Assembly (NCBI RefSeq): GCF_964019385.1
Contig: NC_088649.1
Location: 21,482,435-21,546,434 of the forward strand
Direction of reading: 5' to 3'
DNA length: 64,000 bases
From: Sycon ciliatum
Lineage: Eukaryota; Porifera; Calcarea; Leucosolenida; Sycettidae
The translations under genes and the position numbers were made by a program. The notes beneath the pieces are model-generated. The model did not search any database. It was not told where the DNA came from and saw nothing but the letters and a program-made list of their open reading frames with translations. This document shows, piece after piece, positions 8,761 through 62,285 of this stretch; the first letter of the stretch is position 1, and every line of letters begins with the position of its first letter.

Positions 8761-8867
8761 CGTTGTTCACCTACGCGACGATTACCAGGCAACAGTAATG
8801 AGATATATCGGTTTGTTTGTTGATCTTTCGAAGTATACGAACAAATATATATATATATAGATATTAC

Positions 8868-8980
8868 TTAATCTGCGGACAGAACTGTTTCGTCCTTTGT
8901 GGACTCGTCAGCGCAGCACAGAGGAAATGAGGCCGCACCTAATAGCAATGGAAATAAAAATTTCCAATCAGGCCCGAACG
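8868..8980 (-). mobile_element. Ribozyme element R2 (partial retrozyme-like unit)
   Basis: On the minus strand this matches about 112 bp of the tandem 228-bp units at 47781-48183: CGTTCGGGCCTGATTGG, a perfect GGAAAT/ATTTCC hairpin, CGGCCTCATT, CTCTGTGCTGCG and then a hammerhead. The match stops abruptly near 8980. It lies between pseudogene A and gene B. A single truncated unit could not release a monomer circle by itself. Confidence 0.8.
8873..8916 (-). ncRNA. Type I hammerhead ribozyme (R2)
   Basis: On the minus strand, stem I 5' CTGCG (8916-8912) is followed by the core CTGACGA (8911-8905). Stem II is GTCC/GGAC with loop ACAAA. GAAA (8891-8888) follows, then stem III ACAG/CTGT with loop TT. 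C17 is at 8878, and stem I closes with CGCAG (8877-8873). All catalytic positions (CUGANGA, GAAA, NUH) are intact with cleavage predicted after GUC. Compared with the R1 copies, stem II changes GUUC/GAAC to GUCC/GGAC, a compensatory pair. This is sequence-based; activity is untested. Confidence 0.92.
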
Positions 8981-9538
8981 TATAGACATTACCGTTAGAT
9001 GATTTAGCAAGGTGTGTCATTGGTCATATTTCTTGCAGTTACTCACCTTAATTCAATGACCATCTGTCCATTGGAGCGTTCAAGTGACTTAAACGTGAGA
9101 GGTTTCATACAAACCTAATTTTAATACTTTCAGTGTGCGATGACGTTAAATGGTCTCAACACAGCATAAAATCAGCAGATATTATCTGAGCGGCACAGAG
9201 TCCCATTAATTGCATGCGACGACCGCGAGCTATTGGAAAAGCGTTCTGAAAAGTGTGCGAGTGTTTTAATCAGCAGTCACAGCTACACTTATTGAAACGG
9301 CATTAGTGCCGCTTGCATGCTGGATGAAATGGACAGGATTGATGGATGGCAAACGATTCTAATGTACATATACTTCTGTCCTGTCTGGGACGTACATATG
9401 TAGGCAGGATCATCCTTTGCGTGAATTGCGACGATATATACATGAATATAACCTTGTATCCGATAGTATAATATTATGACGTATGTGTTACCAAGCTCTA
9501 TGAAGTAACGAAGTGCAATTGACTCTGATTGGTCGGGA
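8981..9538. other. Intergenic, partly duplicated 3' flank of gene B
   Basis: No gene is present. From about 9290 it resembles the 3' flank of copy C (for example GAAACGGCATTAGTGC near 9295 and TTGTATCCGATAGTATAATATTATG near 9450 against 19380-19415), so it belongs to the duplicated gene unit. Confidence 0.5.
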
Positions 9539-10675
9539 TCACAAGACGTGGTCGATCATAGAAGGCAATAGGGAGATAATGATTGACACTAAGGGGACAG
9601 AGGAACGAGGGAAGATCGAGTACCGCATGGTGAGGTCCAGTGCTAATGGCAATGGTAGTAGCCTCAGCACTGTCGCACGGAACTGAGATTTGGAACCGCG
9701 AATCCCGCTGCAGGAAGATAGGACTGTGTTTGACTTCGTTATCTGGTTTCGGTGACGAACGAATGACTTGAAGTTTCTGAACGTCCAATAGACATACCGC
9801 TGCAGGACAGATGACTGTGTCAACAGGATTGATATTGTCGATTTGAGATTGAGAAAAATATGAAGATATGAGCTGCTGAGTCTTTTCCTTATGCCGAAAA
9901 TTGCTTTCCTGATCTGTTGGATAATTTTTGGGATGAGTTCTGAAAACAGCCTTGAGCCAATATTCTTCAGCGTATCAACACACCTGTCGTCGATATCCCA
10001 TTTACCCGGCTTTGTAAGGAGTTGACGTGCTCCTTCCAGCACTGGTTCCCAACAACCCAAACTAGTCTGTCTAACGTCTATCGAAGATTGATTTGGCTTT
10101 GGTGGGTGGGTAAAGAAGAACAAGAGCGTCTTGGACAACACCAGCAACTTGCAGTGATATGGACCGTTGGTGTTTCTACAATAGAGCTGAGAGGACACTT
10201 GCTTTAGGTTGCACTTTTCTATGATGTTGCGGGAATGGTGTACGGCGACATTTAGACTTTGACTTGATGTCAGCAGAAGACGAGCATTCTGACAGGCTGC
10301 CAGGCTTATAAATGTACTCTCCAAAAATCTCAATATCATGACGGCAGAATAAACTAGACCACACCAGAGGTTCTCCTTCCATTTCCTTCTCTGTTCAACA
10401 ATTTTTGGACAGTCGGCAAGCTCCCTGCGCACTACCATGCGAAGGAGTAGAAGAATGTCTTCCTTCACGTCCTTGATGGAGCAAGTTTTGTTTGCAAGTA
10501 CGCGCACTGATGATCCAGGGGGAACACTACACAGACGCTTGGTCAACACATCCGATTGTGGACTCGCAGGAGAGACCAATGTGGTTCTGCTGCGGCTGAT
10601 GTTGCTGCTGGATTGCACACATACAGCTATGCCGGACACGAGCAGCAAATGGTACACTGTGGCAAACCCGATCAT
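9539..10675 (-). CDS. 10-Cys secreted protein, gene B (intact, 378 aa)
   Basis: I do not recognise this protein. The ATG at 10675 starts a hydrophobic signal-like segment (residues about 4-19, then VQSSSN), so secretion is likely. Cysteines at residues 49, 65, 89, 105, 155, 166, 175, 208, 232 and 322 match gene G with no spacing change; C19 and C128 are not shared. Landmarks are LTKRLC, NKTC, CNLKQVSSQLYC, LGCWEP and KWDIDDRC. N-glycosylation sequons occur (NIS, NKT, NQS). The region after 240 is basic and helical-looking, ending in a hydrophobic stretch (about 359-371). It is intronless, with a TATA box about 90 bp upstream. Ten invariant cysteines suggest five disulfides, which is inference. 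A secreted ligand, receptor ectodomain or defence protein are all possible; I assign no function. Confidence 0.85.
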   Translation of the reverse strand: MIGFATVYHLLLVSGIAVCVQSSSNISRSRTTLVSPASPQSDVLTKRLCSVPPGSSVRVLANKTCSIKDVKEDILLLLRMVVRRELADCPKIVEQRRKWKENLWCGLVYSAVMILRFLESTFISLAACQNARLLLTSSQSLNVAVHHSRNIIEKCNLKQVSSQLYCRNTNGPYHCKLLVLSKTLLFFFTHPPKPNQSSIDVRQTSLGCWEPVLEGARQLLTKPGKWDIDDRCVDTLKNIGSRLFSELIPKIIQQIRKAIFGIRKRLSSSYLHIFLNLKSTISILLTQSSVLQRYVYWTFRNFKSFVRHRNQITKSNTVLSSCSGIRGSKSQFRATVLRLLPLPLALDLTMRYSIFPRSSVPLVSIIISLLPSMIDHVL

Positions 10676-19485: not shown

Positions 19486-20629
19486 TCACAATACCTGGTC
19501 GATCATAGAAGGCAATAGGGAGGTGATTATCGACACAAAGGGGACAGATGTGCGAGGGAAGAACCCGTTCTGCGTAGTGAGGTCCAGTGCTAAAGGCAGT
19601 GGTAACAGCCTCAGCATTGTCTCGCGTAGCTCTGATTTTCTTCCGCGAATCCCGCGGCATGAAATTAATACTTTACTCGACGCCGTCAGCTGGTTTCTTT
19701 GACGCACTAATGACTTGAAATTGCCGAAGGTCTGGTGGACATACCGTTGGAGAACAACTGGTTGAGTCAACAAAATTATTACTTTCGAATGAAGATAAGA
19801 GAAAAGAACAAGATAGGAGCTGCTCACTGTACTTCTCCTGCCAAAAAAACACTTTCCTGATCTATTGGATAACTTTTGGGATGAGCACTGAGAACAGTCT
19901 TGAGCCGATGTCCTTCAGTGTATCAACACACTTGTCATCCATATCCCATTTGCCCGGCTGGGCCAGGAGTCGACGCGCTCTTTCCAGCACTGGTTCCCAA
20001 CAACCCAAATTGGTGTGTCCAATTTCGACCGATGTCTGATTTGGGTGTGGCGGATGAGTAAGCATGAACAAGAGAGTCTTGGACAACACTAGCAACGGAC
20101 AAGGAAATGGAATGCTGGATTTTCCGCAGTAGAGCTGAGGGGATACTTCCTTTAGGTTGCACTTTTCTATAATGTTGCGTGAATGGCAGACAGCAGCATT
20201 TAGACGTTGACTTGAATTCAGAACAAGACGAGCATTCGGCTGCACCACGGGGCTAAGATATTTATTTTCTAAATAGTTCAAGCGGAAGATCCTATACGCA
20301 ACTACAGTACACCAGAGGTTCTCCTTCCATGTCCTCCTCCAATCAACAATCTTCCGACAGTTGGACAGTTCGTTCCGCAATACTACACGAATGAGCACCA
20401 GAATGTCTTCTCCCACATCCATGATCGAGCAAGTTTTGTTTGTAAGAGTGCGTACTGGTGACCCATTGGGAACACGACACACACGCTTGGTCAACTCGTC
20501 CGATTGTTGAAGCACTGGTGAAGCCAATCTTGTTCTACCGCTGCTGCTGATGTTGCTGCTGGTTTGTACACGTCCATGTATACTAGACATGAGCAGGACA
20601 ATTAGACACACTGTGGCAAACCTGATCAT
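19486..20629 (-). pseudogene. 10-Cys secreted protein family, copy C (nonsense + frameshift)
   Basis: The ATG at 20629 is preferred to an upstream ATG at 20701, because the TATA box at 20711-20718 would put the transcript start near 20685. The leader (MIRFATVCLIVLLMSS) and nine of ten conserved cysteines read normally through FGCWEP-like LGCWEP and MDDKC. A TAG at 19862-19864 stands where gene B has CAG. A run of seven T (19843-19849) shifts the frame by one, after which the tail continues normally (SSSYLV to the stop at 19486). It is closest to gene B. Two independent lesions make a sequencing error less likely, though the homopolymer alone would be suspect. Confidence 0.85.
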
Positions 20630-20710
20630 CCTCCTGTCAGGGGCGTAGGTGAAAGGACAGTAAGAAATCGTTCCTGGATTAGAAATGAATGAATTCAGCA
20701 AGCATTGGCC

Positions 20711-24429: not shown

Positions 24430-24883
24430 GTACGAAGTAGTGGTTGCGACTTCGGCGATGATTTGTAAGAACGGGTTTGCTCCCCACACGTTGCGAATGA
24501 CCGAGGGTCCTCAACGTCTGGTCTCACCGTCCAGGAGCGACACTGACTCACGCTGCTATCTGGTGTTCACGAGGTGTTTGTCGCGCTGGAAATGGAGCGT
24601 CTCTGTAAGTTTGTATCCCTGGTGATGTTTGTGCCTGGAGAGCATTATAAGTGGTGCTCTTCAGGCACAATTTTCCTCAGCCTACTCAAGCTCAACTGAT
24701 GAGGGGTGAATTCCCCGAAACACTGTGTATTGAGCAGGGAGAGGTGCTTTCTTGCAGGTTTGCCGAGTCGAAGGTTCGATGGACTTCTCGTGTGCTCTGG
24801 ATGGCAGTCGTGAGTCAGTCAAGTGTCAAGTAATGTCGGCGGAATAGCGCGAGCTCCAGTGTGGGGAGCAAACCCGTTCTTAC
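24430..24883 (+). mobile_element. Ribozyme repeat X, copy X1 (454 bp)
   Basis: It is flanked by a 13-bp direct repeat AACTCCTCAAATG (24417-24429 and 24884-24896). The paralogous flank of gene G (60720-60750) lacks the element, so this is a clean insertion. The left end (GTACGAAGTAGTGG, then GATTTGTAAGAACGGGTTTG) is the inverse of its own right end, as in Penelope-like elements whose pLTRs can lie inverted. The interior carries a hammerhead. No protein is encoded. Related copies are at 27880-28250, 31990-32345, 47197-47768 and 54275-54775. Confidence 0.85.
24690..24735 (+). ncRNA. Type I hammerhead ribozyme (X1)
   Basis: Stem I 5' GCTCAA (24690-24695) is followed by the core CTGATGA (24696-24702). 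Stem II is GGGG/CCCC with loop TGAATT (24703-24716). GAAA (24717-24720) follows. Short stem III is ACA/TGT with loop CTG, A17 is at 24729, and stem I closes with TTGAGC (24730-24735). Every conserved core base is present. A minimal stem III is typical of animal type I hammerheads, which often need a dimer or a tertiary contact to cleave well. Cleavage is predicted after A24729. Confidence 0.92.
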
Positions 24884-25229
24884 AACTCCTCAAATGAGAA
24901 TAAAAACGATTTCTGTTTAGAAGTGATTTACCTTCACAGAGAAGCAGACGATACAAAGGTGGAAATGTCATTGTTGTTACCTTGTAGATGGTGATTGCAC
25001 CACAAAATTATGAGGTATGAGATGAAAAGCAAAGGACAGGTGTCACGGATACGAAATTGGAGAAAATGCAACTTGATACATTTGTGGCTTTGTGCTGTTT
25101 TAATTCATAAAAAAATAATCATGGTCTGCTTGCACTGGCGTTTTGGACATTGTGCTCTGCTGAAATTCGCTGCAATCACATTGTTATCGTGTATGACGTG
25201 TAAGCAGTGAATTCTACCAGTGAGGAGGC

Positions 25230-26719
25230 TCACGCATTGTCCAGCACCAAGTCAACTTTGGACTGGAGAACAGATACAAGCAAAGAGGCGATGATAAACG
25301 GTACCCGTGGTGATGAAGTTATTTCACTTCGCGCATAATGGACAACAACAAGTGCTAACAGCTTCAGCACAGTTGACCGTACTTGTGACTTTGGTAAGCG
25401 AAGACCTCGACATGAAGCCACCACTTTGTTTGACTGGCTCAATTGGTTCCTGCGCCTGACGAATTCTTTCATTTTCTTGAACAGTGTGTAAACGTGGCGT
25501 TGTAAAACAGCTGGCTGTGCCATAAGTGTAAGAAGCCTAGTGTGGATAAGTGACAACAGGGATCGTCGCGTGTTCTTGCCTCTGTCTAACGTTGCAACGT
25601 TAAACAGAAATACTCGCGCTTCTTGGAACATGCCGGGAATGAGCAGTTTGTATAACTTTGTGCCGATGACCTGTAGTATATCAAGACATTTGTCATCAAT
25701 AGAGAGGTTCCGCATAACGTAATTACGTTAGTAAAAAACGTAGTCGATCTACGGAAAGTCTTACGTAAACTGCATGCGCATCTGGGTTCCGCCATACGGA
25801 GTTTTCAAATCACGTAGCTGCCCTTGACAACTCCGAACGCGGCAGTGTACGACCAGATCGACCTGGGGAGAGAGTCATAAATTTGTACCCCAATCCACTA
25901 ACGGACCAGCTACGTTATCAGAGCCCTATCTACGTACTCTCCGTAGTCAACTTTCCGTAAGTGGAGTGCAAACTCGCGAATTCACGGGTTTTTCCCGCCC
26001 ACTAACGTAAAGTTGCTCAACTTTACGTTGTGCGGAACCTCTCTAATATCCAATCTACCTGGTTTTGCAAGAAGAAGACGCGCCTTTTCCAGTTCTGGCT
26101 CCCAGCATCCAAAGGCAGCCTGGCTTAGCTCCATCCGAGTTGGATTGGGACTTTTCGAATGTGTCACGAAGAACAAAAGCGTTTTAGACAAAGTAAGCAA
26201 CCTGCAGCCATTCGGACCAGTGGGGTTTCCACAGTAAAGCTCAGAGGACACTTGCTTCAGGTTGCAGTTTTCTATGATGCTGCGTGAATGGTGGACAGTG
26301 GCAGTTAGACTATGACTTGATCTCAGCATATCCACGACATTGTGCAGCTCTGGACCGTTTAGAAGATGCTTCATCAAAGCCTGAACGCGAAGTATGGTGA
26401 AGGTTAGTAGAGCACATCCGACATTCCCCTTCCAAGACCTCATTGGGTCCACGATGTGCCTACAGCTCTTCATCTCCCTGCGCAGAACTGCATCAAGGAG
26501 AACAAGAATGCTTTCGCCCACCTCCTTGGTGGAGCAAGTCTTGTTTGCAGGTGTGCCGGCGGATGATGGCTGTGAAACGCCGCACAGGCGCTTTGTCAAA
26601 TCATCCGATTGCTGCCACCCCGATGAAGCAATACTACTACTGGTAAAGTTAGTACCGCATTTCGCGTGCCCACTAATGCTGGACATGATCAGTAGATATA
26701 CGGTGATAAGCCTTCGCAT
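25230..26719 (-). pseudogene. 10-Cys secreted protein family, copy D (split by a MITE)
   Basis: The ATG at 26719 (leader MRRLITVYLLIMSS) is chosen because it aligns with the ATG of genes G and H and follows a TATA box by 75 bp. Coding runs to residue 225 (KPGRLDI), then a 344-bp MITE intervenes (25701-26044). It resumes in frame at DDKCLD and ends at 25230. Without the MITE and one AAT copy the reading frame would be 380 codons, against 378 in genes B and G. All ten conserved cysteines are present with the family spacing. No other lesion is seen, so disruption looks recent. As read, the product would end about 19 residues into the MITE. Confidence 0.88.
25701..26044. mobile_element. MITE in gene copy D, AAT target duplication
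   Basis: It starts AGAGAGGTTCCGC and ends GCGGAACCTCTCT, flanked by AAT at 25698-25700 and 26045-26047. The interior holds inverted TAACGTA/TACGTTA pieces. The paralogues give the empty site, which fixes the boundaries to the base. It has no coding capacity. Confidence 0.92.
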
Positions 26720-26791
26720 TGTCTTTTCCTTTGCCGCGATAGTTACACAATATTTCTGGTGGAGACATGCTTTAAACAACGAAACATTCGC

Positions 26792-26799
26792 CTTTATAT
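26792..26799 (-). promoter_or_regulatory. TATA box of copy D
   Basis: On the minus strand GCATATAAAGGCGAATG lies about 75 bp before the ATG. It is identical to the motif before gene G and duplicate H. Confidence 0.7.
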
Positions 26800-26819
26800 G
26801 CAAGAAATTGGCTGTCAAA

Positions 26820-27879: not shown

Positions 27880-28250
27880 GGACAATGCATGATAGCTTTT
27901 TGAATGTGTGTACTTTCACTGATTTTTGTGTGTAGAAGAAGTGGCTGGTGCGACTTCGGCGATACTCTGGGAATTGTGTGTTGCTCAGTGCGTAATAGCT
28001 CTCGCCTTTGATGCGACCTTGAAATTTCACTTGACTCACGACAGCCATCCGGGGCACACGAGAAGTTCATCGAACCTTCCACTCGGCAAACCTGCAAGAA
28101 AGCACCACTCCCTGCTCAACATACAGTGTTCGTGGAATTTACCGCTCATCGTTTTTGATTGAGATGCCTGATGAAGATTTTCACTGAAGAGTACCTATAC
28201 AGTGCTCTCCAGACCTAACCACCACCAGGGATAAAACGTCAGGCGAAATA
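27880..28250 (-). mobile_element. Ribozyme repeat X, copy X4 (degenerate)
   Basis: On the minus strand it keeps TATCCCTGGTGGTGG, the GAGAGCACTGTATA-type hairpin and CTTTCTTGCAGG. The hammerhead core is mutated (ACGATGA instead of CTGATGA, and GAAC instead of GAAA), so no activity is expected. Confidence 0.75.
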
Positions 28251-31989: not shown

Positions 31990-32345
31990 GTTCAACGACG
32001 ATTCCTGCAAATTTGTATCCCTGGTGATGGTTAGGTCGGGAGAGCACTATAGTATAACTATGTAGTGTTATTCAGAAAAAAAGCTTCCTCGGCCTACTCA
32101 AGCTCAACTGATGAGGGGTGAATTCCCTAAAAAAAACTGTATGTTCAGTAGGCAGTGGTGCTTTCTTGCAGGTTTGCCCAGTGGACGGTTCGATGGACTT
32201 CTCGTGTGCCCCGGATAGCTGTCAGCCAAGTGAAATTTTCAAGATTGCAGGAAAGGCGCGAGCTCCCACGCAGGGAGCAACACACAATTCCCAAAGTATC
32301 GCAGAAGTCGCACCTGCATATTCTCCTGCACACGAAAGCAGGGAG
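31990..32345 (+). mobile_element. Ribozyme repeat X, copy X3 (degenerate)
   Basis: It keeps TATCCCTGGTGATGG, CTCAAGCTCAA and the core CTGATGA with stem II start GGGG (32108-32118). GAAA is replaced by an A-run (TAAAAAAAAC), and stem I is broken (GTTCAG), so the ribozyme is dead. Confidence 0.8.
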
Positions 32346-39312: not shown

Positions 39313-40204
<892 letters not shown>

Positions 40205-40625
40205 CTACTACTACTACTATTGACAGCTGCCAGAAATGGCCACGCCGCTCCCCAAAGGGAGGTACTGTCAGAGAGGTTAGGGGAGAGGTAATGGCGCTCC
40301 AGGTCCTGTCGCCTCCGAAACTGGCGTTGACTACAGACTCGGCAATGATGTTCAAAGTGCTGGCGATCAGTCACTGTAGGGCGCTTCGGGCGGGGTCCAC
40401 AGCGATGGCGCTTGAGGCCAGCAGTAGACTTGAAAGTACGCTGGCAGGCAGTACACACCGGAACCTCGGCAACAGGAGGAGCATCAAAAGGCGGTCGGTC
40501 GTCACAGTTGTCACTCCCTAGGCAATTATGCACTGCAAGCCCACCCCTGCTCCGGAGCCATCTACTGCAGGCAGGACACTGCACCGACCCAGGCTGCTGT
40601 GATACGGGGAGCTGTCGGACTGCAC

Positions 40626-41123
<498 letters not shown>

Positions 41124-45650: not shown

Positions 45651-46930
45651 GATCGAGCGACAGGTTAAGCCTTGACTGCGTCTGGATTTCACCACATCAT
45701 TAAAGCCTCAGTCAGCAGGATCTACGTGAAGAGGGGGGATGGAGGCCGGGGCTTGGTCTCTTGTGAGGATATGCACGGCCGGAGCATGTGTGGCCTGGCC
45801 CGCTACATGAGTACCAGCCCAATAGACAGAAAAAGCCTGCTTTATCAGTATCTGCAGTATCATCAACAAAAACCTACAACAAAAAGCCACTCAAGAACTG
45901 CAAAGGCCGCTAAGTTCCTGTCGAGTTTGGATCTGCCAGCAGCTGGACCAGCTTTACCCAATAAGCATTTTTTTTTTTTTTTTTTTACTAAAAAACACAG
46001 CCCTACTAATAATCAGGGGAAGAGGACAACTGAAATGACGCTGGACAACAAGACAAAGGGGAGTAGGGGCGATGTGCCGATGTGGTTGCATACCATTAAA
46101 CAAGCGTGCGCGGAGCGAAAATCCAAAACACAGTTTCCACTATGCCGCTGCATGGGAGATATTGGAGCCGATTGGAGGAGAATCGCCTAGATAAGGAGCT
46201 TACCTTCATGTGGTTGAAATCAAGGACACTGAAACCTTCAACTGAAGGAATGATTATGGCAGCACAAGACCAATCCCTCAAAACGAAAAATTACCAATAC
46301 GCCATTACGATGTCAATTGCTCGAACTGATGCCAATTGCAGGCTTTGCAAGGGCAGCTTAGAAACCATTGACCACATTGTCAGTGCCTGCCCAGTTCTTG
46401 CTTGGACTAGTTACATTGAACGACATAACCAGATAGTAAAGTATGTGCACTTCGAAATGTGTAGAGCACGAGATCTACCTACTGGTGCTTCACGCTTCGA
46501 CCACCAGCTTAAGGCATTGGTCAAAAGTGATCGGTATCCGGTATCGCCTCTATTGGGAGTATTCGGTCCCAACTGACCTGAAACTATCAGGAAACTGGCG
46601 CATCGCCTACATTATAGACATCAGCGTTCCTGGTGAGAACAACATCAATAAGAAAATGGCTGAAAAGCGCTCGAAATATTATGATTTGAAGCGGGAAATT
46701 TCCAGGATTTGGTCCCTCACCCAGGTTGACGTGGTCCCTGTGGTTGTCGGTGCCCTGGGAGGCTTGGTGGGAGAGACTCCTCAATGCCTTCGGACTGTGC
46801 AGGGAGGAGACATAGCTATTGTGCAACAGGAGGCTATCCAAGGTTCGGATAAAATACTAAGAACTACCCTTACATGTAGATGCATCTCTGCTGCGTTTGC
46901 ATGTTCAATAACTAAGAGTCTTGAATAACG
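45651..46930 (+). pseudogene. LINE-E (R4/NeSL-like) part 2: CCHC and restriction-like endonuclease
   Basis: Continues part 1 across LINE-C: ASVSRIYVKRGDGGRGLV, then after a poly(T) insertion (45967-45987) and a shift MIMAAQDQSLKTKNY, CRLCKGSLETIDHIVSAC (C-x2-C..H-x4-C) and a further shift to DLKLSGNWRIAYIIDISVPG, AEKRSKYYDLKREI and VVVGALGGLV. This order (knuckle, then a PD-D-K type nuclease) is that of R2/R4/NeSL LINEs. At least two frameshifts; dead. The 3' end is probably near 47190. Confidence 0.8.
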
Positions 46931-47196
46931 ACTGATAAAGAATGATATTTCCTTTGTTACTCCCTTCATTGGTTGATATACTCTGCCTGTCGCTGCAAAT
47001 TCTTTATTATTGTTTTGATGTTGGAGTTCGGATTGAGTTTCTTTCCTTTCTTCCTTTTCCTTCCCCCATTTCTTGTCCCTTTGGTTTTTAGCTTTTTTAT
47101 TTTTTCACTTTCTTTTTGCTGTCCCATCCATGGAAATATGTCTCGGTGGGTCTGGCTTATCGCCTTCGAAAGAAGTGAATAAAGGAGACATAATAA

Positions 47197-47768
47197 AGGG
47201 TTTGCTCTACACACCGGAGCTCGCGCTATTCCGCCGACTTTACAAACCCTTTCTTACAAATCATTGCTGAAGTCGCAACCACTACTTCGTACTGTTGTGC
47301 CCAGCGCGGGCTTGCGACTAGTTGGGTTGGAGGTGACAACGTTGCGAATGACCTAGGGGCCTCGACGTCTGTCTCACCGTCCATGAGCGACACTGACTCA
47401 CACTGCTATCTGGTGTTCACGAGGTGTTTGTCGCGCTGGAAACGGAGCGTCTCTGTAAGTTTGTATCCCTGGTGATGTTTGTGCCTGCAGAGCACTATAT
47501 AAGTGGTGCTCTTCAGGCACAATCTTCCTCAGCCTACTCAAGCTCAACTGATGAGGGGTGAGATCCCCGAAACACTGTGTATTGAGCAGGGAGTGGTGCT
47601 TTCTTGCAGGATTGCCGAGTCGAAGGTTCGATGGACTTCTCGTGTGCTCTGGATGGCAGTCGTGACTCAGTCAAGTGTCAAGTAAAGTCGGCGGAATAGC
47701 GCGAGCTCCGGTGTGGGGAGCAAACCCTTTCTTACAAATCATCGCCGAAGTCGCAACCACTACTTCTT
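47197..47768 (+). mobile_element. Ribozyme repeat X, copy X2 (572 bp)
   Basis: It is flanked by CATAATAA (47189-47196 and 47769-47776). The left end carries an inverted piece (GGTTTGCTCTACACACC) followed by a direct piece (CTTTCTTACAAATCATTG) of the right end. The core matches X1, with a complete hammerhead and the preceding GAGCAC-TATATAA-GTGGTGCTC hairpin. Mixed direct and inverted terminal copies are a hallmark of PLE pLTRs. Confidence 0.82.
47542..47587 (+). ncRNA. Type I hammerhead ribozyme (X2)
   Basis: Stem I is GCTCAA (47542-47547) with TTGAGC (47582-47587). The core CTGATGA is at 47548-47554, stem II GGGG/CCCC has loop TGAGAT, GAAA is at 47569-47572, stem III is ACA/TGT, and A17 is 47581. 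Only the loop II sequence differs from X1 (TGAGAT versus TGAATT), so stems and core are conserved between two independent insertions. Confidence 0.92.
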
Positions 47769-47901
47769 CATAATAATAATGCTGATTGCGTTATGCAGAG
47801 CTCACTGACTTGTCAGTTTGAGCACTCTGGCAAGGTACGTTCGGGCCTGATTGGAAATTTTTATTTCCATTGCTATCAGGTTCGGCCTCATTTTCTCTGT
47901 G

Positions 47902-47947
47902 CTGCGCTGATGAGTTCAAAAAGAACGAAACAGCATGCTGTCCGCAG
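47902..47947 (+). ncRNA. Type I hammerhead ribozyme (R1, first unit)
   Basis: Stem I is CTGCG (47902-47906) with CGCAG (47943-47947). The core CTGATGA is at 47907-47913. Stem II is GTTC/GAAC with loop AAAAA (47914-47926). GAAA is 47927-47930. Stem III is ACAG/CTGT with loop CATG, and C17 is 47942, giving the favoured GUC site. All core bases are intact. Confidence 0.95.
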
Positions 47948-48129
47948 ATTGAGTATTTCGCTCCTGCTCTTGTAGCAGTTGAGCACTCTTGCGTGGGGTA
48001 GTGCCTTTGCTGATTGCGTTATGCAGAGCTCACTGACTTGTCAGTTTGAGCACTCTGGCAAAGTACGTTCGGGCCTGATTGGAAATTTTTATTTCCATTG
48101 CTATCAGGTTCGGCCTCATTTTCTCTGTG

Positions 48130-48175
48130 CTGCGCTGATGAGTTCAAAAAGAACGAAACAGCATGCTGTCCGCAG
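48130..48175 (+). ncRNA. Type I hammerhead ribozyme (R1, second unit)
   Basis: Identical to the first-unit ribozyme, exactly 228 bp downstream: core CTGATGA at 48135-48141, cleavage after C48170. Confidence 0.95.
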
Positions 48176-48307
48176 ATTGAGTAATGATAATAATTAAAAA
48201 GTTTACGTGGAGATAAAAATGTAATCAACGCAATAAATAGAGTAAGCTGCGCACTCAGTACAAACACCACTAGCAAAACCTGTTTTCATGTAAATAAAGA
48301 AGCTTGT

Positions 48308-48341
48308 TCCTAAACGTTTTCGTCGCCATCTCATCAGAGGA
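48308..48341 (-). ncRNA. Hammerhead-like motif, PLE remnant P3
   Basis: On the minus strand TCCT (48341-48338), then core CTGATGA (48337-48331), GATGGCGAC in the stem II position with only the closing G-C pair strong, GAAA (48321-48318), stem III AAC/GTT, U17 at 48312 and stem I AGGA. It lies downstream of the P3 endonuclease C-terminus, as in PLE pLTRs. Weak stem II suggests decay. Confidence 0.6.
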
Positions 48342-48529
48342 TTACTGTGGCAAATCAACATTAGCTCTAAACTCAATATATATACGCACAATGCAAGCAA
48401 TATTTTAGACCCTAACTAGCGCGAGAAAATGAGAGCTGAAAGAAACATGACATCAATCAACGATATCAGGTGACAACAGATGCGATAAATTCACCACTAG
48501 AAAGTAACCATGCAACCACAAACGAGAAC

Positions 48530-48825
48530 TACTGATCTAAATTCACAAACAATTTCAACGTAAACAAATTCTTTTTCTGCCTACACAAAATCGGCTTGGT
48601 GGTAAATATGTAGATAGACTCCAATACACGCAAATACCTTTGACTACGTGAACGAGACCAAACAGAAAAGCAATCATCAGTATAACTAGAACGACAATTA
48701 CTATTCTCAACAAGATGGTTAGCAACAAAATATTCATACACCCTAACATCACTACTAGAACCAGTACATACTTTGGAATTACCTGAAAATGAAACCGACC
48801 TGACATTCCTTGCCGCTACTGCCAA
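48530..48825 (-). pseudogene. Penelope-like endonuclease C-terminus, remnant P3
   Basis: The minus-strand frame shows NCRSSYTDDCFSVWSRSRSQ, LRVLESIYIFTTKPILC and NLFTLKLF, matching the end of PLE GIY-YIG proteins (an EA-IYI-KP-L motif before L-LF). The catalytic GIY-YIG core and RT are absent. Confidence 0.65.
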
Positions 48826-49099
48826 TCCAGACGAGGCCGATGCTGATGTCAGACAAGTTGAAATGGAGATCAGACATTGTTTGGGGATGAGTTTTTGTTG
48901 ACTGGAGACAGAAGCGGACTTGGCTTAATTTCAGTGTATTCTCATGCATTGATCTTTGGCCTTTGTACGCGTGCTGTGGTATTATTATTAATATTATTAT
49001 GTAGAGAATAAATAGGATGAAGGCCGCAGACATCACGCAACTACGTTACTTGTTTGACATGTATTACTGTGTAGTTTATAACAAAAATATAATTGAAAA

Positions 49100-49135
49100 C
49101 CCAGAATCGATTTTCTCGTTCCAATCATCAGGGGG
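49100..49135 (-). ncRNA. Hammerhead-like motif, PLE remnant P1
   Basis: On the minus strand core CTGATGA (49131-49125), stem II TTG/CGA with loop GAA, GAAA (49115-49112), stem III AAT/ATT and C17 at 49104. Stem I is CCC/GGG but with a mismatch next to the core. Same position as in P3, after the endonuclease tail. Confidence 0.6.
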
Positions 49136-49304
49136 AAAAACGGAACTAAGGATACAACCAAAGAAACTGAAGTTAAGTACTGTAAATAGAAAGGTGTTAT
49201 AAATAACAACAAGATACAAGTGCAATAAAACCACTAAAGGAAACGCAAAAAAGGTAACAAGATTACATAATCGAAGGCGAGAAGGCACTGAACGAAGTGT
49301 CAAC

Positions 49305-54274: not shown

Positions 54275-54775
54275 ACTGCTCCAGCGTGGGAGCAATCAGG
54301 TTCCTAATACGATTTTCCCCAAGGCTGCTTCCACTACTTCGTACTGTTCTTAATCAGTGAAGGCTTGTAATCACATGTCAGGAACTGACAGTGGTGCGAA
54401 CGACTAAGAATCCTCAGCGTCTGTTCCATCCATGAGCGACACTGAATCAAGCTGCTATCTAGTGTTCAGGAGGTGTTTGTCGCGCTGGAAACTGCTGGTT
54501 TCTGTTAGGTTTTATCCCTGGTGATGATTTGGCTTGGAGAGCACCATGCAAGTGGTGGGCCTCAAGCACCATCTTTCTGAGCATACTCATGCTCAACGCA
54601 TGAGGTCTTTCCGAAGAACTGTGGATTGAGTAGGGAGCGATGCTTTCTTGGAGAGTTGCCGATGGGAAGGTTCGAACGACTTCTCTTGTGTTCAGGATGT
54701 AAGTCGTGAGTCCGTCAAGTCATGTCGGTGGGAAAGTGCCTGTTCCAGTGTGGGAGCAACCTACCTTCTAGTTAA
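54275..54775 (+). mobile_element. Ribozyme repeat X, copy X5 (degenerate)
   Basis: It matches X2 through CCACTACTTCGTACTG, GAGCGACACTGAATCA, GGTGTTTGTCGCGCTGG and ATGCTTTCTTGG. The hammerhead is mutated (GCATGAG for CTGATGAG; GAAGAAC for GAAAC). Confidence 0.75.
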
Positions 54776-61085: not shown

Positions 61086-62222
61086 TCACGGATTGTCTAG
61101 CACTAAGTCCACTTTGGACTGGAGAACAGATACAAGCAAGGAGGCAACGATAAACGGCAACCGTGGGGAGGTAGTCTTCCTACTCCGCGCATCATTCACA
61201 ACAACTAGTGTTAATTGTTTCAGCACAGTCGATCGTACTTGTGAATTTGGTCCGCGAAGACCACGACATGAAGCCAACACTTTGTTCGACTTGCTCACTT
61301 GGTTCCTGCGCCGGACGAATTCTTTCATTTTCTTGAACAGTGTGTATACGTGGCGTTGTAAAGCAGCTGGATGTGCCATTAGCGCTAGAAGTTTAGTGTG
61401 TAAATATGACGACAGGTAGCAATGCTTGTCCTTGCGTCTGTCTACTATACCGAACAGGAATGTTCGTGCTTTTTCGAACATGACGGGAATGAGCAACTTG
61501 AATAGCTTCGAGCTGATAACCTGTAGAGAATCAATACATTTGTCATCTACATCCCATCTCCCTCGTTCTGCAAGGAGAAGACGCGCTCTTTCCAGTTCCG
61601 GCTCCCAGCATCCAAAGCCAGTCTGGCTTTCGTCCATTGAGGTTTGATTTGGTCTCTGAGGATGTGTCACGAAGAACAAGAGCGTCTTAGACACAACTAA
61701 CAACTTGCAAGCCTCGGTGCTACTGGAGTTCCCGCAGTAATCCTGAGAGGACACTTGCTTCAGGTTGCACCTTTCTATGATGTTTCGGGAATGGTGGACC
61801 GTGGCATTTAAATTTTGACTTGATTTCAGCACATCGAATATGGTGTGCAGCTCTGGACGACTTAGAAGCCGTTCCTTTAACGCCTGAACTCGAAATACGG
61901 TGAAGGTTAGTAGTGCACAACCGACATTCTCCTTCCAATGCCTCCCTCGGTCAACAATGTGCCTACAGCTCTTTATCTCCTTGCGCATTACTGCGTCAAA
62001 GAGAACCATAATGCTTTCGCCCATCTCCGTAACGAAGCAAGTATTGTTTGCAGGATTGCGGGCCGATGATAGCTGTGAAACGCCGCAAAGGCGCTTTGTC
62101 AAATCAACCGACTTCTGCAACCCCGAGGGAGCAATACTTCTGCTGGTGTACTTGGTAATGCATTGTACATGTCCACCAATACTGGACATTACCAGTACGT
62201 ACACAGCGATCAGCCTAAGCAT
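61086..62222 (-). CDS. 10-Cys secreted protein, gene G (intact, 378 aa)
   Basis: I do not recognise the family. The ATG at 62222 (MLRLIAVYVLVMSS) is preferred over one at 62243, because all paralogues start here and the TATA box lies about 65-70 bp upstream. A signal-like leader covers residues about 1-19. The ten conserved cysteines are at 46, 62, 86, 102, 152, 163, 172, 205, 229 and 319, spaced exactly as in gene B (49 to 322). C21 and C268 are extra. Landmarks are LTKRLC, RCNLKQVSSQDYC, ACKLL, FGCWEP and DVDDKC. Sequons include NAT, NSS and NQT. The C-terminal third is basic (KKMKEFVRRRNQ) and ends with a hydrophobic stretch near 356-368. Intronless and unbroken. Copies D and H are its closest relatives. 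Confidence 0.87.
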   Translation of the reverse strand: MLRLIAVYVLVMSSIGGHVQCITKYTSRSIAPSGLQKSVDLTKRLCGVSQLSSARNPANNTCFVTEMGESIMVLFDAVMRKEIKSCRHIVDRGRHWKENVGCALLTFTVFRVQALKERLLSRPELHTIFDVLKSSQNLNATVHHSRNIIERCNLKQVSSQDYCGNSSSTEACKLLVVSKTLLFFVTHPQRPNQTSMDESQTGFGCWEPELERARLLLAERGRWDVDDKCIDSLQVISSKLFKLLIPVMFEKARTFLFGIVDRRKDKHCYLSSYLHTKLLALMAHPAALQRHVYTLFKKMKEFVRRRNQVSKSNKVLASCRGLRGPNSQVRSTVLKQLTLVVVNDARSRKTTSPRLPFIVASLLVSVLQSKVDLVLDNP

Positions 62223-62285
62223 TGTCTTCTCTGTTGTTCGCAAAGACGCTTACTACACCTTATTGCTGGTGATAAAAGCATTCGC

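Follow-up and report, generated by a model that had tools for sequence, protein, structure and literature searches.

A hammerhead retrozyme of the sponge Sycon ciliatum whose copies share a 3' end beside the ribozyme

Results

The retrozyme insertion and its surroundings

The window, by which we mean the whole 64,000-nucleotide stretch of S. ciliatum DNA analysed here, contains an insertion of 1.77 copies of a 228-nt unit, which spans 47780-48183 and carries two identical and complete type I hammerheads with GUC cleavage sites (Table 1). The insertion is organised as a direct repeat of 176 nt (47780-47955 and 48008-48183) with a spacing of 228 nt and a single mismatch (G47834/A48062). The initial annotation had placed both hammerheads, their predicted cleavage sites and the 228-bp spacing correctly, and had described the copy as undamaged, in agreement with both ribozymes being intact. 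The 6-bp hairpin that it reported in both units is also present, recurs in the second copy and is retained in the copy at 8.9 kb. Its proposed tandem-dimer layout was borne out for the tandem hammerheads without a protein but not for a clean dimer, the insert being a 5'-truncated one. No ORF of at least 130 aa overlaps the retrozyme and, among ORFs of that size, an RT plus GIY-YIG frame is absent from it; its GC content is 47.8%. The 3' end lies about 11 nt past the cleavage site, and the best 11 nt of the probable target-site duplication (TSD) agree at 10 positions. The 5'-truncated relative on the minus strand (91% identity over 120 nt) has its 3' end at the same unit position.

Table 1. Coordinates of the retrozyme insertion, its parts and related elements in the window
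Feature	Position	Strand	Remarks
Retrozyme insertion, 1.77 units of 228 nt	47780..48181	+	G48181 (unit nt 11) set as the 3' end; the match continues to 48183
Type I hammerhead 1, GUC, predicted cleavage after 47942	47902..47947	+	
Type I hammerhead 2, predicted cleavage after 48170	48130..48175	+	identical to hammerhead 1
228-nt RNA expected from double cleavage (unit nt 1-228)	47943..48170	+	read from the sequence; cleavage predicted
5' copy of probable TSD, TCATAATAATAAT	47768..47780	+	11/13 identical to 3' copy; low complexity
3' copy of probable TSD, TAATGATAATAAT	48182..48194	+	
Hairpin GGAAAT-TTTT-ATTTCC within longer stem CCTGAT..ATCAGG	47853..47868	+	read from the sequence
5'-truncated relative, 0.53 unit, 91%	8865..8982	-	stem II GUCC/GGAC; TSD GTAATGTCTATA/GTAATATCTATA; ends AAG, followed by T
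Neighbouring separate element, GUA hammerhead core 47548	47191..47766	+	13 nt upstream of retrozyme

A larger part of the window (46740-49236) is 98.88% identical over 2,501 bp to C8:20964000-20966500 (locus L062), a segmental duplicate about 565 kb away that contains both the retrozyme and its neighbour with the GUA hammerhead. The retrozyme insertion predates the segmental duplication that copied it to or from that site.

A second copy of the neighbouring GUA-hammerhead element (24430-24885, hammerhead core 24696) has a perfect 14-bp TSD, and diverged relatives lie at 54395-54720, 28018-28237 and 32005-32223. The element has an inverted terminal copy, a direct 46-nt repeat and an optional tail of about 30 nt; an ATG lies within the core of its hammerhead, in CTGATGAG. 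The motif at its 3' end reads CTACTTCG in the duplicate L062 and CTACTTCTTC in the window copy. A comparison by eye places CTACTTCG at the 3' end, or close to it, in L087, L088 and L089 as well; the first two have GIY-YIG matches, and L089 is upstream of a third. No RT or GIY-YIG frame was found in the copies at 47191-47766 and 24430-24885. A layout of pLTR and tail has been described for Penelope elements (PMC3846280 and PMC11167929), and the neighbouring element is probably a Penelope-like pLTR derivative.

Elsewhere in the window, four minus-strand regions (9539-10675, 19862-20701, 25982-26818 and 61086-62243) hold ORFs, the longest of 385 aa, that resemble one another on inspection by eye; those at 9539 and 61086 gave no Pfam match. 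A CA-rich microsatellite array of 1.8 kb (39314-41121) adjoins (AC)n and (ACT)n runs. Fragments at 45672-46928 resemble a LINE C-terminus, with a zf-RVT match just below the cut-off; the remainder of this region we take to resemble restriction-like-endonuclease LINEs.

Structure and Rfam scores of the hammerheads

Each window hammerhead consists of a 5-bp stem I (CTGCG/CGCAG), the core CTGATGA, a 4-bp stem II (GTTC/GAAC), GAAA, a short stem III with a palindromic CAUG loop, and the GUC cleavage site. The features of type I are present, namely a conserved core, three helices with stem I open and a UH cleavage site. A structural scan found 5 hammerheads in the 64-kb window compared to 1 in 500 dinucleotide shuffles combined, and on this we rejected a chance origin.

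The covariance-model search suggested in the initial annotation gave a divided answer. At the gathering score, Rfam had 0 matches within the window; with E-values of up to 5 allowed, four rows were returned for the whole window, and the top three are hammerheads of the retrozyme family (E 0.0016-0.0029). Two of these are the window hammerheads, at 30.2 and 29.3 bits with RF02275 (cut-off 52), and the other is a third hammerhead at 8872-8917 on the minus strand, at 30.1 bits with RF00163 (cut-off 34). In a genome-wide Rfam search, in which 74 of 76,236 candidates were scored, 4 of the 21 listed matches reached the gathering score, and all four loci (L001-L004) have the retrozyme family's CGCAGATTGA flank. 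At about 941-973, L002 also has a further motif resembling a hammerhead, whose site is GUA and whose stems are unrelated; it possibly represents another ribozyme family. Exact-pattern scans of viral contigs for both hammerheads gave 0 matches.

After removal of duplicates and of two overlapping loci, the scanned loci contain 129 hammerheads of the retrozyme family, all with GUC, in a scan that accepts intact motifs only. They fall into two stem II subtypes, GUUC/GAAC and GUCC/GGAC, which are one compensatory pair apart; this pair could reflect a single event. Variation per site is 0.0094 in the hammerhead part compared to 0.0148 in the rest of the unit, a weak difference (Mann-Whitney p 0.045). 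The predicted monomer circle is 71% paired, compared to 64 ± 3.6% in shuffles, with an energy z of -2.0, a mild gain in stability. In this predicted fold the hammerhead core pairs with the linker UUUCG (-69.8 kcal/mol, compared to -64.1 kcal/mol with the hammerhead imposed), so that imposing the hammerhead costs 5.7 kcal/mol with tertiary contacts not counted.

Array ends and target-site duplications

We searched the genome (538 Mb, 313 contigs) with the 228-nt unit and found a dispersed multicopy element with at least 100 matches, the best 40 of 94 first-look candidates being scored; the copies studied are therefore the most window-like ones. Forty stretches were fetched, 39 from the unit search and one from the Rfam search, which together with the two window loci gave 42 loci. 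These were aligned to a head-to-tail reference built from the window's unit, leaving out matches below 50 bits. Of the 58 arrays obtained, 11 in six loci whose flanks mark them as duplicates (L049, L054, L057, L060, L062 and L077) were excluded, leaving 47. Five more were cut by the edge of a stretch and two have another match end (L066, where nt 144 jumps to nt 224 before the GAG end, and an inverted block of L070), giving 40 readable junctions. L040 and L041, which lie 62 kb apart and have an identical 5' end, were kept as two and may be related.

In all 40 junctions the match to the unit ends 3' at nt 12-17 (5 at nt 12, 13 at nt 13, 17 at nt 14 and 5 later). Unit nt 9-11 read GAG in 39 cases and AAG in one; nt 12 is T throughout, and nt 13 is A in 34 of the 40. 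A TATATATA or ATATATAT run falls in the first 12 nt of 14 of the 40 sites, compared to 14 of the 34,487 12-mers beginning with T when both window strands are counted. Rfam gave six further loci that were not recovered with the unit. Of these, five have GAG as their end, followed by T in three, A in one and C in one, and the sixth is degenerate.

The 5' ends are scattered, their positions not differing from a uniform spread over the unit (KS p 0.16, n=40), and the arrays are 0.23 to 6.47 units long (median 1.77), 29 of the 40 being longer than one unit. Side matches of 50 nt (unit nt 179-228 and 1-50) had suggested a fixed 5' end, which was refuted by reading the loci in full; we take these matches to be a search margin. 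Four loci (L040, L041, L051 and L056) share a 5' start at unit nt 134, within the 5' arm of the long hairpin; the reverse transcriptase may stop at this point, or the loci may in part be duplicates. Retrozyme arrays in both orientations are clustered at L056, L057 and L050 with short AT-rich spacers between them, which we read as several insertions into one microsatellite.

Because repeats abound in the window, random window positions are a poor comparison for single TSDs, and this comparison was replaced by a permutation in which flanks were swapped between loci. For the 23 loci with complex flanks the mean TSD score is 7.13, while 300 permutations gave a mean of 0.43 and a maximum of 2.26. 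Clear TSDs (score of 9 or more; 9-16 bp) were found in 10 of these loci (examples are TAAGTGATCTTTTA, TTAACTCGTATCCA and TAGCACACATACATG), ambiguous ones (score 4-8) in seven and none (score 2 or less) in six. Five of the clear TSDs begin directly after GAG (L051, L052, L056, L059 and L063), three overlap GAG where the target has those letters (L061, L074 and L078) and two begin 2-3 nt later (L055 and L065). Since the starts cluster around GAG, we set the end of the insertion at nt 11 to within about 3 nt.

In the RF02275 alignment UUGAG is the 3' strand of the outer stem I (CUCUG/UUGAG, with one mismatch), a position at the foot of the folded ribozyme, where copying thus seems to begin. A fixed 3' end combined with scattered 5' ends and TSDs of 9-16 bp is the signature of target-primed reverse transcription from an internal start, and we consider it likely that the retrozyme was inserted by target-primed copying of this kind.

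Candidate helper elements

Which element would supply the reverse transcriptase is a closer call. A purified Penelope-like protein starts reverse transcription internally, downstream of the hammerhead, at AT-rich nicks, and in that system the hammerhead is dispensable for insertion in vitro (PMC11167929). The S. ciliatum genome has at least 13 GIY-YIG family matches among 150 scored candidates, two of them in open frames of 749 and 807 aa, and hammerhead-like motifs occur downstream of several. The suggested link to Penelope is one of likeness of mechanism: a comparison of the retrozyme with Penelope-like 3' regions, including the start site, gave no significant sequence similarity, and the common 3' motif of the genome's Penelope-like elements (CTACTTCG) differs from the retrozyme GAG. 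Two Penelope-like ends without a tail disagree, L090 reading GAG followed by T and L087 reading differently, and the L090 junction was therefore dropped as a match to the retrozyme end. On this evidence we regard a Penelope-like helper as an even chance.

A LINE (non-LTR retrotransposon) acting as helper instead is a credible if doubtful alternative. TSDs of 9-16 bp, 5' truncation and 5' inversion are also LINE hallmarks, and LINE-type reverse transcriptases are present in the window. LINE-like TSDs of 15 bp are reported for Nematostella repeats in the account given by PMC4918200. The internal start of copying, where a 3' tail would be expected for a LINE, is at odds with this alternative, and hammerhead-bearing elements with GIY-YIG frames co-exist in the genome as other candidates.

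Circular or linear template

Cleavage would leave a linear monomer with its 3' end at nt 228, on which copying from nt 11 could yield only 11 nt. The inserts are longer than this, and the template must therefore pass through the cleavage site, as either a circle or an uncut multimer. When arrays were grouped by a spacing of 200-260 nt, the stem II subtype was uniform in 29 of 31, whereas each of 2000 shuffles gave at least 7 mixed arrays, with a mean of 13.3; because the grouping uses spacing alone, the mixed array L003 is probably two adjacent insertions. Divergence between units is 1.3% within arrays compared to 2.2% between them (69 complete units, 26 arrays). Subtype uniformity and the lower divergence within arrays favour one circular template. 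Units differ by at least 3% within 3 of 17 arrays, and unit lengths of 228 and 231 nt are mixed in L040 and L041; in view of these we hold the circle to be the probable template, with some reserve. L070 has two blocks, each of 4.2 units, in inverted arrangement and looks like the product of 5' inversion during target-primed synthesis.

The alternative of a linear multimeric transcript, on which the helper would start internally at GAG, before UA, in any unit, would more readily account for the two unit lengths in L040 and L041 and for differences of 1-3% between units. It also has a precedent in the Penelope-like in vitro system, which used mainly unprocessed RNA and in which ribozyme mutants inserted normally (PMC11167929). 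We consider it unlikely in light of the uniform stem II subtype, and since an RNA of six units would have to stay uncut although all six of its hammerheads are intact.

Relation to known retrozymes and Penelope-like elements

Metazoan non-LTR retrozymes are outlined in PMC7229834 as tandem units of 150-450 bp with a GC content below 50%, no ORF and, when present, TSDs of more than 4 bp. Further traits of the group are the lack of an LTR, PBS or PPT, a monomer RNA with a high degree of self-pairing and expression as circular RNA. The element described here fits them in its type I hammerheads, 228-nt unit, GC content, absence of an ORF of at least 130 aa, TSDs of more than 4 bp and dispersed copies, and so the retrozyme reading of the initial annotation was right; the sequence supports its assignment to this known kind. 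Type I hammerheads with a short stem III are common to it and to the retrozymes of Acropora, Mytilus, Ambystoma and others, and the nearest unit sizes are those of coral (220-240) and jellyfish (227 and 233), a likeness by description in PMC7229834 and not by sequence. The account consulted there mentions neither a fixed 3' end about 11 nt past the cleavage site nor many (TA)n targets, both of which are documented for the S. ciliatum copies. The predicted circle differs from most animal circles of that paper in that some of the hammerhead core is masked.

The Penelope-like elements whose pLTRs contain minimal hammerheads, as summarised in PMC11167929 and PMC3846280, resemble the retrozyme in having the hammerhead near the start of insertion, partial tandems and AT-rich targets. 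The retrozyme, in contrast, lacks a frame for RT or endonuclease, its hammerhead is canonical, and its 3' terminal sequence differs from theirs; their TSDs are given as 8-10 bp (PMC3846280). Plant LTR retrozymes, going by the description in PMC4918200, are likewise non-autonomous and flanked by hammerheads, with circular RNA shown in plants and presumed here, whereas their hammerheads are of type III, their TSDs are 4 bp and they have LTRs and repeats 600-1000 bp apart. The hammerhead type and the TSD length were our sole grounds for rejecting a retrozyme of the LTR type. Large TSDs were already known, with 15 bp cited for Nematostella in PMC4918200.

A satellite-like tandem spread by DNA recombination or segmental duplication, with the ribozymes as passengers, is very improbable: 6 of the 42 loci, including L062, were indeed set aside as flank duplicates, but what remains after their removal is insertions with TSDs into unrelated sequence, with the 3' end constant and the 5' end variable. 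The 40 counted arrays reach at most 6.5 units, and the TSDs and fixed 3' end led us to reject spread solely as a DNA satellite.

Discussion

In the pathway that we infer from the hammerheads, ends, TSDs and array lengths observed, self-cleavage at both hammerheads would yield a 228-nt RNA that would then be re-joined as a circle. Copying would begin where stem I of the hammerhead has its foot, at unit nt 11 give or take about 3 nt, and the nicked target (first base T, mostly TA) may pair there with U12-A13 as the primer. Reverse transcription, by an enzyme presumably borrowed from another element, would cross the re-joined cleavage site and make anything between part of one circuit of the RNA and more than six. 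It would have no set stopping place, and the resulting tandems would vary in their 5' end but not in their 3' end, often with a TSD of 9-16 bp.

This 3' end bears on how animal retrozymes insert. According to the 2020 review (PMC7761336), animal retrozyme repeats are without a conserved motif pointing to a helper, and we found no report of a fixed 3' end beside the hammerhead in the retrozyme and Penelope-like literature, which was covered mostly as titles and abstracts. The constancy of the 3' end (40 of 40 junctions, about 11 nt past the cleavage site) shows where copying starts and that the template crosses the cleavage site. The fixed end allows a concrete in vitro test with proteins of the same genome, and the junction signature can be searched for in other animals.

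We put forward, tentatively, that animal retrozyme circles are rolling-circle templates for target-primed reverse transcription, and that a borrowed Penelope-type reverse transcriptase recognises the folded hammerhead and starts at nt 11. If this is true, the ribozyme would both make the circle and mark the start of copying, and one circle would be copied six or more times into a single insertion.
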